A stretch of DNA of 64,000 nt from Rhodothermia bacterium (GTDB lineage: Bacteria > Bacteroidota > Rhodothermia > Rhodothermales > JAAAOL01): contig JAUIDY010000011.1 in NCBI GenBank assembly GCA_030428385.1, forward strand, positions 1 to 64,000, read 5' to 3'. The notes below the pieces were generated by a model. That model saw only the letters and a list, made by a program, of their open reading frames with translations, did no database searches and was not told the origin of the DNA. How positions within the stretch are numbered: position 1 is the stretch's first letter; each line of letters opens with the position of its first letter. Positions 4,760 through 9,996 of this stretch are shown piece after piece. Position numbers and translations under genes: made by a program.

Positions 4760-5434
4760 TCACGGGGTGCTCATGGTAGCGAGTGCCGGGACATCGCGCA
4801 GGTGTACCACTCCCCGGGTTAAGGCCACCCATCCGCGATGCTCGAACTCTTTCAGGATGCGGCTTACGACTTCGCGCGAGGTGCCCAGGTCGGCAGCGAT
4901 GTGTTCGTGGGTGCGTTCAAGGCGGGAGGACGTGGCTCCTGCTTCTGCCAGGTAGGCCGCCAGCCGCTCATCCACCCGGTGAAAGGCCACCTCTTCCACC
5001 AACTCGATCACCGTGGTGAGGCGGCGCGAGAGCAGGTCGAACACATAGGTGCGCCACGCACGGAATTGGTCGAACCAGTCCTGAAACAGGGGAGCCGGAA
5101 TAACCAGGGCATCGACGTCGGTCTCAGCCTCGGCGAACGCCGGAAACAGGCGGTCACTCAGGATACACGAGGCCGTGAGGATGCAGCTTTCGCCGGGGCG
5201 AATGCGATAGAGGGTGATGGGGCGGCCATCATCGCTGAGTTTGTACACGCGGGCATTGCCTTCCAGAACAAGCGGAAGGTGTGCGCAGGCATTGCCTTCC
5301 ATGCACACAAAGGCACCCGCCGGGAGAGTGGTGGCTACGGCCTGGGTGGCAATGGCTTCGTGGAGGGCAGGGGAGGCCGCATGCAGAAACGGAAACAGGT
5401 GGTCGATACGGGGGTCGTCGAAAAGCGGAGCCAT
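4760..5434 (-). CDS. Crp/Fnr-family transcriptional regulator
   Basis: This 224-residue protein has an N-terminal cyclic-nucleotide-binding-like beta barrel (about residues 20-130: LPAGAFVCMEG, LPLVLEGNARVYKLSDDGRP, LYRIRPGESCIL) and a C-terminal winged helix (THEHIAADLGTSREVVSRIL). The recognition helix reads S-R-E-V-V-S-R, the same R-E-x-x-x-R spacing as E. coli CRP (Arg180, Glu181, Arg185). It does not show the E-x-x-S-R pattern of FNR. There is no four-cysteine Fe-S motif, although single cysteines occur in the sensor domain. An in-frame extension to 5512 adds 26 residues without family similarity, so I use the ATG at 5434. A matching palindrome just downstream suggests control of the following microprotein and DUF2892 genes. 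The effector is unknown. Confidence 0.88.
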   Translation of the reverse strand: MAPLFDDPRIDHLFPFLHAASPALHEAIATQAVATTLPAGAFVCMEGNACAHLPLVLEGNARVYKLSDDGRPITLYRIRPGESCILTASCILSDRLFPAFAEAETDVDALVIPAPLFQDWFDQFRAWRTYVFDLLSRRLTTVIELVEEVAFHRVDERLAAYLAEAGATSSRLERTHEHIAADLGTSREVVSRILKEFEHRGWVALTRGVVHLRDVPALATMSTP

Positions 5435-5518: not shown

Positions 5519-7063
5519 TCACTGATTGTCTAGAATTTCCAGAAAGCCTTGCCAATCGGAAAGCGTTTCTGGAAAACGCAGCTTGCGTTCGTAAAACGCC
5601 TGTTTAAAATAGGATTGATAGGCAACCGGAGAGATGGGACTGCCGGTGGCAAGGGTTTCGTTTGCGGCGGCCTGTTGGTAGAGGGCCGAGATGGTAGGCC
5701 GACCTGTTGTGTCTTCCGACAAGAGCTGTTGCAAGGCGGCATGCATGTACGTAAGGCGCTCGAAGAACAGGCTTGGATCGGAGGAAGGGGGTAGGGGGCT
5801 TGGAGGAGGGGCGGTGAGGCGGGCCATGCGATGCCGGTGCAACACCAGGGCAAGCAAGCCGAGTGCGACGAGGCTTCCGCCCAACAGGGCTACCCACGAC
5901 CAGGAGGAATCGCGGGGCTGGAGCACCATGCGCAGGTAGGCTTCCTGCGCCTCGCGCAGCGCCCGGGCCGTGGCAATCTGGTGCACGTCGGTGGGGGCAG
6001 CGTTGACGGCTAAATGGTACCAATTCTCGGCAGCATCGTACTCTTCCAGGGCTTCATGGATTTTGCCTTTTTCCAAATAGAGGAGGACGACAAACTCTGG
6101 AATCTCGGATGTCGCGGAAAGGTTGAGGGCGTATTCCAGGCTGCGAAGGGCGTCGTCGGTTCGTCCCTGGGCGTGGTACAACCGTGCCTGTCGCCAATGA
6201 ATGTGGATGATTTCGCGGGGCAGGTTGTGTGTTTCGGCGAGGTAGAGGGCGTGCTCAAACGCTGCGCGTACCGAATCAGGAGATCCGAAGGCATGCTGGG
6301 CACGCGCAAGGAGGACATAGGCCTGAATGCGCCGGTCGATGTCACGTGGGGCATTAAACAAACGGATGGTGGTGTAGGAGTCGCGCAGTACCTGATCAAG
6401 CAGAGGCTCGTCCATCTCGCGTTGCCAATGCAGGGCGAGCAGCGCGTTGCTGCGTTCGAAGAGGGCCCGGGCACGTGTCTCGTTGTTGACCGCCGGGGTT
6501 TCAAGGACCTCTGTGGTTAACGCAATCGCCTGTTCAAAATCATCAAGGTGGTTATACACCAGGGCGCCGTCCACCTTGCCCGACAATTGGTCTTCAAGGG
6601 GAAGGGCGTCGGCATAGCGTTCGAATTCGGCATACGCATCCACCACGCCATGCAGGTTTCCATCGGCACTATCAAACGTCAACTTCCACAGGGCGAACCG
6701 GGCGCGGTATTCGGCGTCGGCATCAGACAGATAGCGCTCGTAGAACAACACGACGTTGTTCTGGGCAGGGGCCATCTGGTCGAGGTGATAGTGGGCCCAC
6801 ACTTCTTTGTTCAGCAGCCACACCTCGCGGAGGCCTCGGGTGCCGTCATAACAAATCCGGGCATCATGTGCTTGCAACGCAATCCGTTCCAGCGTCTCGG
6901 CATCATAGGTTTCTGCTTGCGTGTCGGTGGTTGCCAGGAGGTGCTTGTAGTGCTCGGAGACGTCTTGCGTAAGGGCATCACAGTCCTGTGCCCAGGCCAG
7001 CGGCGCCACCAGCATGGAACCAATGAGGCAAGCTGTGTTAAAAATAAGTAGCTTGGCGCTCAT
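5519..7063 (-). CDS. TPR-repeat membrane protein with signal peptide and cytoplasmic tail
   Basis: The 514-residue protein starts MSAKLLIFNTACLIGSMLVA with signal cleavage after WAQ. Residues from about 25 to 385 are helical hairpins of tetratricopeptide type (for example LARAQHAFGSPDSVRAAFEH and YHAQGRTDDALRSLEYALNL). One transmembrane helix (WVALLGGSLVALGLLALVL) follows, then about 110 cytoplasmic residues with a Pro-rich linker and a helical domain ending LSDWQGFLEILDNQ. The start at 7063 is supported by GAGGAGG seven bases upstream, a strong ribosome site for this genome. An external TPR array joined to a cytoplasmic domain suggests a sensor, but no known output domain is recognised. Its start codon is only 31 bp from that of the divergent glycine-rich peptide gene. 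Confidence 0.8.
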   Translation of the reverse strand: MSAKLLIFNTACLIGSMLVAPLAWAQDCDALTQDVSEHYKHLLATTDTQAETYDAETLERIALQAHDARICYDGTRGLREVWLLNKEVWAHYHLDQMAPAQNNVVLFYERYLSDADAEYRARFALWKLTFDSADGNLHGVVDAYAEFERYADALPLEDQLSGKVDGALVYNHLDDFEQAIALTTEVLETPAVNNETRARALFERSNALLALHWQREMDEPLLDQVLRDSYTTIRLFNAPRDIDRRIQAYVLLARAQHAFGSPDSVRAAFEHALYLAETHNLPREIIHIHWRQARLYHAQGRTDDALRSLEYALNLSATSEIPEFVVLLYLEKGKIHEALEEYDAAENWYHLAVNAAPTDVHQIATARALREAQEAYLRMVLQPRDSSWSWVALLGGSLVALGLLALVLHRHRMARLTAPPPSPLPPSSDPSLFFERLTYMHAALQQLLSEDTTGRPTISALYQQAAANETLATGSPISPVAYQSYFKQAFYERKLRFPETLSDWQGFLEILDNQ

Positions 7064-7094
7064 GCCCTCCTCAACCAACACGTAGGTGAATCGT

Positions 7095-7232
7095 ATGTAT
7101 AACGAACAACTCTTATTTGCAAGATCGGAAGGCGAAGGGGAAGGAGAAGGTGGTAATAATGGGGGAAGTGGCGGCGGGGGCGGTACCGGTACGGGTGGCG
7201 GAGGATCCGGTGATCCGCCTCCTTTGTGTTAG
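7095..7232 (+). CDS. 45-residue glycine-rich peptide of unknown function
   Basis: An ATG at 7095 opens 45 codons ending with TAG at 7232. AGGTGA lies five to six bases before the ATG, a good ribosome site, and a strong intrinsic terminator follows 36 bp after the stop. The product begins MYNEQLLFARS, continues with alternating Gly-Glu, then a Gly/Asn/Ser/Thr tract, and ends GDPPPLC. It has 18 glycines and one cysteine, which is the last residue. All four glycine codons are used (about 5 GGC, 3 GGG, 4 GGA, 6 GGT), which argues for selection on the peptide rather than DNA slippage. There is no signal peptide. It diverges from the TPR membrane protein gene. It may be a secreted or modified peptide, a signal, or a structural linker; I do not recognise the family. 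Confidence 0.6.
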   Translation: MYNEQLLFARSEGEGEGEGGNNGGSGGGGGTGTGGGGSGDPPPLC

Positions 7233-7267
7233 ACACATAAGCCGGGGATTTATAACCTACATTCAGG

Positions 7268-7295
7268 GGGACTTCATCGGAGGTCCCTTTTTTTT
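7268..7295 (+). terminator. Intrinsic terminator of the glycine-rich peptide gene
   Basis: GGGACTTC and GAGGTCCC form an eight-pair stem with one G-T pair and an ATCG loop, followed by eight T residues on the plus strand. On the minus strand no T run follows the hairpin, so it serves plus-strand transcription and not leuS. The only plus-strand reading frame it can close is the 45-codon gene. Confidence 0.85.
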
Positions 7296-7350
7296 GACCC
7301 TTCTTCTTGTGCCCCCATTCATCACAACCCCGCATCAGCACGTTTAACCG

Positions 7351-9996
7351 TCAGTTCGCCACAAAGTTGATGATGCGGCCCGGCACGTAGATTTCGCGGC
7401 GCAGCGTTTTGCCCTCCAAAAAACGACGGACGTTGTCTTCGTCGCGGGCCTGGGCCAGCACGGCGTCTTTCTCCAGCCCCACCGGAATTTCGATGGTGGC
7501 GCGGACCTTGCCATTGACCTGCACGGCGACGGCCACGGTGTCTTCCTTCAGGTGCGCTTCCTCCACCGGCGGCCATGGCGCATAGGCCAGGCTCTCGGCA
7601 TTCCCTAGCCGCTGCCACAACTCCTCGGCGAGGTGCGGAGCGAACGGACTCAGCAACAGCACAAACGGTTCGGCAATGGCTGTTGGCAGCACGTCCCACT
7701 TGTTAGCGGCGTTGACAAACTCCATCATCGCGGCAATGGCGGTGTTGAACCGCAGTGCTTCGATGTCGTCGGTCACTTTCTGGATCGTCTGGTGCAGCAC
7801 GCGCAGTTGCTCTTTGCTGGGCGTAGCCTCGGTCGCGGTGACGGCGGCGTCGTCGGTGATGAACAAGCGCCACACCCGGTTCAGGAAGCGGTGCGGTCCT
7901 TCCAGGCCGCGCATGCTCCACGGTTTCACCTGTTCCAGCGGTCCCATAAACATCTCGTACAGCCGGAACGTGTCGGCGCCGTACTGCGCCACCACATCGT
8001 CGGGGTTAACGACGTTGCCCCGGCTTTTGCTCATTTTGAAGGCCCGGGCATCCACCTGAATGCCGGGCTGGTCGTTCAGGACAAAGCCGTCGCCTTTTTT
8101 GGTAACATCGTCATCGGTGACCGCGTGCGCCGTCACTTCCTGTCCGGTGCTTTTGATGACGCCGTTTTCCACCTCGCTGGCCGAGACGTAATGCCCGTCG
8201 GCATCCTGGTAGGCGGTGTATTCCATCTCGCCCAGGATCATGCCCTGGTGGAGCAGCTTTTTGAAGGGCTCTGGCGAGCTAATGACACCCGCGTCGAACA
8301 GCACCTTGTGCCAGAACCGCGCATACAGCAGGTGCAACACGGCATGCTCGGCCCCGCCGATGTACAGGTCCACCGGCATCCAGTATTTTTCCTTTTCGGG
8401 GTCGATCAACTGCTCCGTGTTGTGCGGGTCGATGTAGCGCAGGAAGTACCAGCACGAGCCCGCCCATTGCGGCATCGTGTTGGTCTCGCGGCGGGCGGGT
8501 TTGCCGGTGGCCGGATCGGTGGTGTGCAGCCAGTCCGTTGCCAGCGACAGCGGGCCTTCGGGCGAGCCGCTGGGCTTAAATTCTTCCAGATCGGGCAGCG
8601 CCACGGGCAGCGCATCGGCGGGCAGGGGCTTCGGTTCGCCATCGACGAAGATGACGGGGAACGGCTCGCCCCAGTAGCGCTGGCGGCTGAACAGCCAGTC
8701 GCGCAGCTTAAAGTTGACCTTGGCTTCGCCGACGCCGTGCGCCTCCAGCCAGTCGATGATTTTTCGCTTGGCCTCCGCGACTTCCAGCCCGTTCAGGCTG
8801 GTGCCCTGCGCGGCGACACCGGGGATGGGGGTGCTGGTGGCATCCGAGTTGATGGCGGGACCGTCGCCCGTGTACGCCTTGCCCTCGAAGTCGGCGGGCG
8901 GCTGTACGGTGCGGATGATGTCCAGCCCAAACTTTTCGGCGAATTCCCAGTCGCGTTCATCCTGCCCCGGCACGGCCATGATGGCTCCGGTGCCGTATGA
9001 CGCCAGCACATAGTCGGCGATCCAGATCGGGATGGCGGCACCGTTGACGGGGTTTTGGGCATAGGCGCCGGTGAACACGCCGGTCTTGTCTTTCTGCAAC
9101 TCGGTGCGTTCCAGGTCGCTTTTGTGCGAGGCGGCGGTGCGGTAGGCGTTTACCTCGTCGCGTTGGTCGGCAGATGTGATCACATCCACCAGCGGATGTT
9201 CGGGGGCCAGCACCATAAACGTCGCGCCGAACAGCGTATCCGGGCGGGTCGTGAAGACGCGGATGGTGGCGCCGTCATGATCAACCACCGCAAAATCAAC
9301 TTCGGCTCCTTCGCTGCGCCCGATCCAGTTGCGCTGCATCTCCTTGGTGCTCTCAGGCCAGTCGAGTTCGTCCAGCCCTTCCAGCAGCCGGTCACCATAC
9401 GCTGTAATCTTCAGCATCCACTGGCGCAGCGGACGCCGCACGCACGGGAAACCGCCCACTTCACTCTTGCCGTCGATGACTTCTTCATTGGCGAGCGTGG
9501 TGCCCAGTTCGTCGCACCACCACACCGGGACCTCGGCCTGGTAGGCCAGCCCTTTTTCGTACAGCTTCAGGAAGATCCACTGGGTCCAGCGGTAGTAGTT
9601 GGGATCGGTGGTATCCACCTCGCGGTCCCAGTCGTACGAGAAGCCCAGGCTCTGCAACTGCTCGCGAAACCGGTTGATGTTGCCCTCGGTGGTGATGCGC
9701 GGGTGCGTGTTGGTTTTCAGGGCATACTGCTCGGCAGGCAGCCCAAAGGCGTCCCAGCCAATCGGGTGCAGCACGTTGAAGCCTTGCATGCGCTTGTAGC
9801 GGGCGACGATATCCGTGGCGGTGTATCCCTCCGGGTGGCCGACGTGAAGCCCCGCGCCGCTGGGATACGGAAACATATCGAGGGCGTAAAACTTGGGCTT
9901 CGTGGTGTCAACGTTGTCGGGCGTGCGGAAGGTTTTGTGCGACGCCCAGTGGTGTTGCCATTTTTGCTCGACGTCTTTAAAGGGATAACTCGCCAT
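7351..9996 (-). CDS. leuS: Leucyl-tRNA synthetase
   Basis: This class I aminoacyl-tRNA synthetase charges tRNA-Leu in the cytoplasm. The 881-residue length is normal for a bacterial enzyme. The HIGH-type motif is HVGH at residues 51-54, within [20 protein letters not shown]. The KMSKS motif is intact near residue 653 ([16 protein letters not shown]). The CP1 editing domain is present between them, with [20 protein letters not shown]. The C-terminal anticodon-binding region and the small terminal domain ([16 protein letters not shown]) are complete. The start [17 protein letters not shown] is the conserved N-terminus. It appears monocistronic, with about 460 bp of repeat-bearing DNA upstream. 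Confidence 0.98.

Follow-up and report, generated by a model that had tools for sequence, protein, structure and literature searches.

Does a short glycine-rich reading frame that starts back to back with a TPR protein gene encode a real peptide, and if so, what would the peptide do with its neighbour? The question was raised by a window of 64,000 nucleotides (the whole stretch of DNA analysed, contig JAUIDY010000011.1) from a Rhodothermia bacterium with a genome of 6.19 Mb in 245 contigs. In this window, only 31 bp (7064-7094) separate the start codons of a minus-strand gene for a 514-aa TPR protein (5519-7063) and of a plus-strand frame of 45 codons (7095-7232). A preliminary description had proposed that this frame is a small gene overlooked by the list of open reading frames, and that it may form a peptide-and-sensor pair with the TPR protein.

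Reading of the DNA confirmed each element of the small gene. A Shine-Dalgarno-like AGGTGA (7084-7089, plus strand) lies 5 nt before the ATG at 7095, and 45 codons lead to a TAG at 7230-7232, giving the peptide MYNEQLLFARSEGEGEGEGGNNGGSGGGGGTGTGGGGSGDPPPLC. The peptide has an N-terminal MYNEQLLFARS, an acidic, Gly-rich tail and the end GDPPPLC. The counts reported earlier were also correct: the 18 glycines use mixed codons (GGT 6, GGC 5, GGA 4 and GGG 3), and the sole cysteine is the C-terminal residue, preceded by DPPPL. The terminator scan detected one terminator-like site between 6800 and 7500, a predicted intrinsic terminator on the plus strand (7265-7296; stem 7265-7290, then a T run). The terminator had been described as strong and specific to this strand; the strand and the T run hold, but the folding z-score of the stem (-0.87) is unexceptional for its composition. 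Because stem stability alone is ordinary, the case for a terminator rests on the stem, the T run and the relatives described below.

The leuS gene is convergent to the peptide gene (window 7233-7351) and has no terminator-like site on its own strand; therefore, transcription that passes the end of leuS could continue antisense to the peptide gene and on into the TPR gene. A match of the peptide region to the Rfam suhB/mmgR models was sub-threshold (25.6 bits against the 41 needed, E 0.009), and the suhB identity was dropped for that reason. The short transcript that the terminator would yield, the weak Rfam match and the unterminated leuS strand would all fit a reading in which the frame is incidental, has no protein product, and belongs to a small RNA, to the 5' region of the TPR gene or to an antisense brake on leuS-TPR read-through. 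This reading is answered by the substitution data presented below.

When the peptide was compared with its own genome by tblastn (E ≤ 10), two matches were obtained, namely the peptide itself and a frame on contig C164. This contig (1-11836) carries ParA-, ParB- and replication-initiator-like genes, as judged from their translations, and is therefore probably a plasmid. The second peptide (L009:1468-1620), MTTDNVSWNGFVYHEGEGEGGNGGGNGGSGSGGSGGGSGGGSNDPPPVRC, is 60% identical to the window peptide and has a GGAGG motif; its gene lies 17 bp from the start of an opposite-strand gene for a 508-aa exported TM protein, and the hairpin downstream of it is very stable (z -6.4). The two partner proteins are barely alignable, yet they are alike in length and architecture. 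The pN/pS ratio between the two peptides was 0.39. In a plasmid collection, neither the peptide nor the TPR protein of the plasmid-like contig had a relative.

Searches of 294 relatives with tblastn and HMMs returned the two copies of this genome, a single lead and, apart from these, only noise in the form of TonB-like and other Gly-rich frames. The lead, obtained with a profile of the two peptides (L040/L065), was a 46-aa Gly/Pro-rich frame divergent from a gene for a 907-aa exported TPR-CHAT protein. The family was revealed only when TPR-CHAT genes (PF12770) were taken as anchors and their divergent upstream sides were inspected. In many Rhodothermia genera, exported TPR-CHAT genes face peptide genes of like design that encode 28-72 aa; the anchors, located by a contig profile scan, included genes from Roseithermus sacchariphilus (L147), a Salinivenus MAG (L149) and a Rhodothermus MAG (L152). 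We collected 48 peptides with a median length of 42.5 aa, examples being MRWDLHNRYVVFSRPDDNGGGDPPPPPPPGGGPGEGGGGIAPTDPKEDG (L230), MNTLQKEKYWQFYKDDGEGEGDDPPPKPPKTGDGGGG (L237), MADEEKKEEYPTGDDGSESTTPPPGPEGDGGGNTTPPPNPTPNP (L142) and MKRWRFYLPMSDEEPEGDELAGEAGGDGGDGNDPAPPCGPDHPDYPNC (L140). The pairing with a TPR gene, for which a tblastn check had been suggested, is present as a second copy with the same arrangement in the genome itself, and class-wide as divergent pairing at TPR-CHAT genes. The refuting condition named earlier, a TPR gene kept where the small frame is missing, was examined on the TPR-CHAT relatives and the paralogue, because no clear orthologue of the TPR gene of the window turned up in the genomes searched. 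The comparison did not refute the pairing, but four lineages (f9, f12, f17 and f10) have TPR-CHAT without a recognisable divergent peptide.

In Rhodothermales, the genes usually run recF, peptide, TPR-CHAT, murQ (names judged from translations). In the genome of the window, recF directly adjoins murQ and the TPR-CHAT locus is missing between them; the genome has CHAT-less TPR/peptide pairs instead, one beside leuS and one on the plasmid-like contig. Neither a TPR gene nor a peptide gene was present in the leuS neighbourhood of relatives, indicating that the position in the window is lineage-specific. One locus (L155, 2633-8577) has tandem TPR-CHAT genes, the second with its own divergent peptide, and a second CHAT gene is frequent in genomes G117-G144 of family f18 (e.g., L245-L247), where, short of a locus-by-locus reading, no divergent peptide was noted.

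The collected peptides share a design to which the window peptide conforms (MYNEQLLFARS, then EGEGEGEGG...): a short N-terminal aromatic/basic segment is followed by an acidic tail rich in Gly, Pro, Asp and Asn. An F, Y or W occurs within the first 14 residues in 45/48 peptides and in the tail in 8/48, and the mean tail charge is -5.8. Because the peptides were partly chosen by composition, their low complexity partly reflects this choice, and tail composition is not independent evidence; codon bias, position and the N-terminal aromatic residues are. A short gene whose N-terminal segment differs from its tail, with a Cys in five members (the window peptide, the plasmid-like copy and three others), could also be the precursor of a RiPP with leader and core. 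We consider this highly improbable, since 43/48 peptides have no Cys, no cyclase, radical-SAM, ATP-grasp or LanM gene was seen beside the peptides in loci inspected by eye, and the window peptide matched no precursor model in Pfam or NCBIfam.

To quantify the association, we used a fixed criterion (ATG start, 25-60 aa, at least 40% G+P+D+N, divergent, within 350 bp). Frames of this kind faced 25 of 43 TPR-CHAT genes of the class. For comparison, the counts were 4 of 244 for control genes from these loci and 0 of 45 for CHAT genes from elsewhere than Rhodothermia; in the window, only 1 of 34 large genes faced such a frame, which is the 45-codon gene itself. The Fisher p-value for 25/43 versus 4/244 (approximately 2e-20) is only indicative because the loci share kinship and are not independent. 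The four control positives include a TPR-CHAT gene that the motif filter had missed (L142) and the peptide of an ABC exporter (L149).

Substitution patterns pointed to translation. The earlier suggestion that the peptide is under selection, which was to be examined by synonymous/non-synonymous ratios, was borne out by purifying selection: pN/pS was 0.15-0.66, below 1 in all 18 related peptide pairs. In nucleotide alignments made blind to frame (12 pairs), mismatches numbered 89, 88 and 211 of 502 at the first, second and third codon positions (0.18, 0.18 and 0.42). A terminator was found within 120 nt of 22/48 peptide genes against 1.0 expected, which suggests that the peptide genes are monocistronic, and a Shine-Dalgarno sequence is present in many members. 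The pN/pS values, the codon-position mismatches and the terminators together make a non-coding explanation unlikely, and the recurrence of one design in many genera also argues against it; the reading without a protein product is strongly disfavoured, with very little probability left to it. That the peptide gene is real and that its pairing is conserved is well supported, and we are nearly certain of it.

The distance between the paired genes was a further point of the preliminary description, which had placed the promoters inside the opposing genes and suggested mutual interference. The start-to-start gap is 31 bp in the window and 17 bp in the plasmid-like copy, but 52-207 bp in 13 relatives. 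The idea therefore does not apply to the family, as the tight spacing is special to this genome, and any putative promoter interference is peculiar to it. A Bacteroidota-type promoter (-33/-7) was found upstream of 0/48 peptide genes. The wider spacing of the relatives leaves space for a shared control region, and together with the conserved divergent arrangement and the lack of a signal peptide in the peptide it would suit a cytoplasmic, disordered acidic regulator whose sole link to the TPR gene is a common divergent promoter region for co-regulation, and which makes no contact with the TPR protein. We regard this as rather unlikely, because the pairing with TPR or TPR-CHAT genes persists at several sites (between recF and murQ, beside leuS, and on the plasmid-like contig), peptide and TPR genes were duplicated together, and no third partner is conserved with them.

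The usual partner in relatives is a protein with the order signal peptide-TPR-CHAT, often followed by a TM helix, and with a caspase-like protease fold. Its CHAT His (in HLASH) and Cys (in LSGC) are invariant in 15/15 aligned TPR-CHAT proteins. The best structural match of a predicted model of one such protein (L140, pLDDT 86.6) was Csx29/Craspase, and separase and DdvA also ranked high. In the type III-E CRISPR system Craspase, the TPR-CHAT protein Csx29 acts with the substrate Csx30 (PMC9729208, PMC10028731). The partner proteins resemble Csx29 in the TPR-CHAT order, the conserved His and Cys and the predicted fold, but differ from it in being exported, usually with a C-terminal TM helix, and in being paired with a disordered peptide of 28-72 aa rather than Csx30; the window protein differs further in having no CHAT domain. 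No Cas7-11/gRAMP gene or CRISPR array was noticed in the loci inspected.

Separase likewise combines helical repeats with a CHAT-like domain, and is held by the largely disordered, acidic securin. Separase structures rank high for the predicted TPR-CHAT fold, but the likeness is an analogy of mechanism only: separase is eukaryotic and cytosolic or nuclear, securin is far larger, and no sequence link exists. DdvA (PDB 8rw5, 8rot) is also a large transmembrane bacterial protein with a high match to the TPR-CHAT model; it is, however, an anti-sigma factor, and no sigma-factor gene was seen beside the peptide/TPR loci. According to excerpts of two reports on HetF of Anabaena (PMC8406250, PMC12288457), this membrane-anchored protein with CHAT, TPR and TM parts is a protease that cleaves PatU3, and thus gives a bacterial CHAT-TPR protein a proven proteolytic role. 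HetF has another domain order and another substrate, and a divergent low-complexity peptide is not reported in those excerpts. Our literature search found CHAT proteins as Craspase and HetF, and a divergent low-complexity peptide pair was unreported there, which is not proof of absence.

That a conserved disordered peptide is encoded with a Craspase- or separase-like protein suggests that the peptide is a ligand, substrate or securin-like inhibitor of its TPR partner. Because the TPR-CHAT partner in relatives is caspase-like and retains both His and Cys, a role as protease substrate or inhibitor explains the pair at least as well as a signal for a sensor. Of the peptide-and-sensor proposal, the pairing with the TPR gene therefore stands, and extends further than had been supposed, whereas the sensor role does not follow from it.

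The TPR protein of the window has a signal peptide (residues 1-25), a TPR superhelix confidently modelled by AlphaFold2 (residues 25-381), a single TM helix (residues ~388-410; 5834-5902, minus strand) found by hydropathy, with basic residues after it as expected for a positive inside, and a tail of ~100-105 aa (5522-5833, minus strand) that is predicted to be cytoplasmic, is poorly modelled and has no relatives found and no Pfam family. Pfam recognised the TPRs but no CHAT domain (PF12770) with its His and Cys, and the protein stops ~105 aa past the TM helix. The C-terminus of BatD was rejected as a homologue of the tail, as only the TM helix, a Pro linker and a short stretch align and the tail alone has no relatives. 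PADLOC made no defence-system assignment for the protein. A CRP/FNR-family regulator gene (4760-5434) lies directly downstream on the same strand, so that co-transcription is possible, and the short gap between the two genes contains an inverted repeat (TCTTGG/CCAAGA).

In a profile alignment (hhalign), the window protein matched TPR-CHAT with an E-value of 4.9e-11 from residue 13, but other TPR proteins of the genome scored similarly, and the E-value was discarded as proof of TPR-CHAT ancestry. The window protein is colinear with TPR-CHAT over the signal peptide and the TPRs, and has two Cys, one close to the N-terminus of the mature protein and the other around residue 71; only this colinear start with the signal peptide and two Cys distinguishes it from other TPR proteins. 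Common descent is suggestive, and unproven because unrelated TPR proteins of the same genome reach like scores. The TPR model resembles Rap-peptide complexes (TMt ~0.7; Rap-CSF 0.70) and peptide-bound LGN/Pins. As TPR folds are generic, this likeness goes no further than making a peptide groove plausible.

The RRNPP systems (Rap-Phr, PlcR-PapR), in which a small peptide gene adjoins a TPR protein gene (PMC10075063), are alike in gene neighbourhood and in the resemblance of the TPR model to Rap-peptide complexes. However, RRNPP receptors are cytosolic and carry DNA-binding or phosphatase domains, whereas the window protein is predicted to be exported and membrane-anchored, is encoded divergently, and has a signal peptide and a TM helix but no HTH or phosphatase domain in Pfam. 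RRNPP peptides are secreted and then re-imported; the window peptide has no signal peptide, although its partner is predicted to be exported.

This mismatch of topology, with the peptide lacking a signal peptide and TPR and CHAT predicted to lie outside the inner membrane, bears on whether the peptide itself is exported. In the Salinivenus MAG (L149, 1851-5713), an ABC exporter (PF00664+PF00005) and an HlyD protein are inserted between recF and TPR-CHAT, and two related peptides are encoded there, one divergent from the ABC and HlyD genes and the other from TPR-CHAT. This arrangement is the sole hint that the peptides may be exported. If they are, the peptide could be an exported signal or bacteriocin-like product of ABC/HlyD that a periplasmic CHAT protein trims, with the TPR protein as processing enzyme or receptor instead of intracellular target; the signal peptides of the TPR-CHAT proteins would fit, and a distant HlyD relative in G021 adjoins an ABC gene and a LanC-like gene. 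We judge this unlikely, given that the linkage to a peptide occurs in one of 148 genomes searched, the other HlyD relatives are distant, no peptide of this kind adjoins the full-length relative in G021, and the genome of the window has no relative of the L149 HlyD at E 1e-10. Furthermore, no Gly-Gly leader was seen in the peptides, the ABC protein has no C39 domain, and no modification enzyme was seen beside the peptides. In the G021 locus (L278, C36:6500-20000), the ABC and HlyD genes have as neighbours a subtilase gene, a gene for an exported repeat protein and one of LanC/LanM-like type (motif WCHGAPGIGLTRL), so that the locus is a possible lanthipeptide cluster.

We favour the explanation that 7095-7232 encodes a translated and selected peptide of a family whose members are short, disordered, acidic and rich in Gly, Pro and Asp, and are encoded divergently from exported TPR proteins in Rhodothermia. 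The peptide would be produced from its own monocistronic mRNA and would bind in the TPR superhelix, with the N-terminal aromatic/basic segment as the specific part. In the CHAT versions, the His/Cys site may act on it as a substrate or be occupied by it in the manner of securin. For the window protein, the simplest guess is that binding would be relayed through the TM helix to the cytoplasmic tail; alternatively, this protein may be a CHAT-less receptor or decoy. As a whole, this mechanism is a reasoned guess with about an even chance of being right. A broader picture is more doubtful, although still conceivable: an undescribed class-wide module in which an exported caspase-like TPR-CHAT protein of separase/Craspase fold is held or triggered by a divergently encoded disordered peptide, as a securin-like or peptide-gated protease outside the cytoplasm, and of which this genome would have derived protease-less receptor versions, one of them spread onto a plasmid-like element.

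These results describe an unannotated family of small proteins that are conserved divergent partners of an exported CHAT-type protease in a class to which relatives of Rhodothermus, Roseithermus and Salinibacter belong. To our knowledge, how most non-CRISPR bacterial CHAT proteins are controlled is not known. With a peptide partner at hand, a synthetic peptide and a purified protein would suffice for a direct test of such control. The window would contribute a further stage, namely loss of the protease domain with retention of the peptide pairing.
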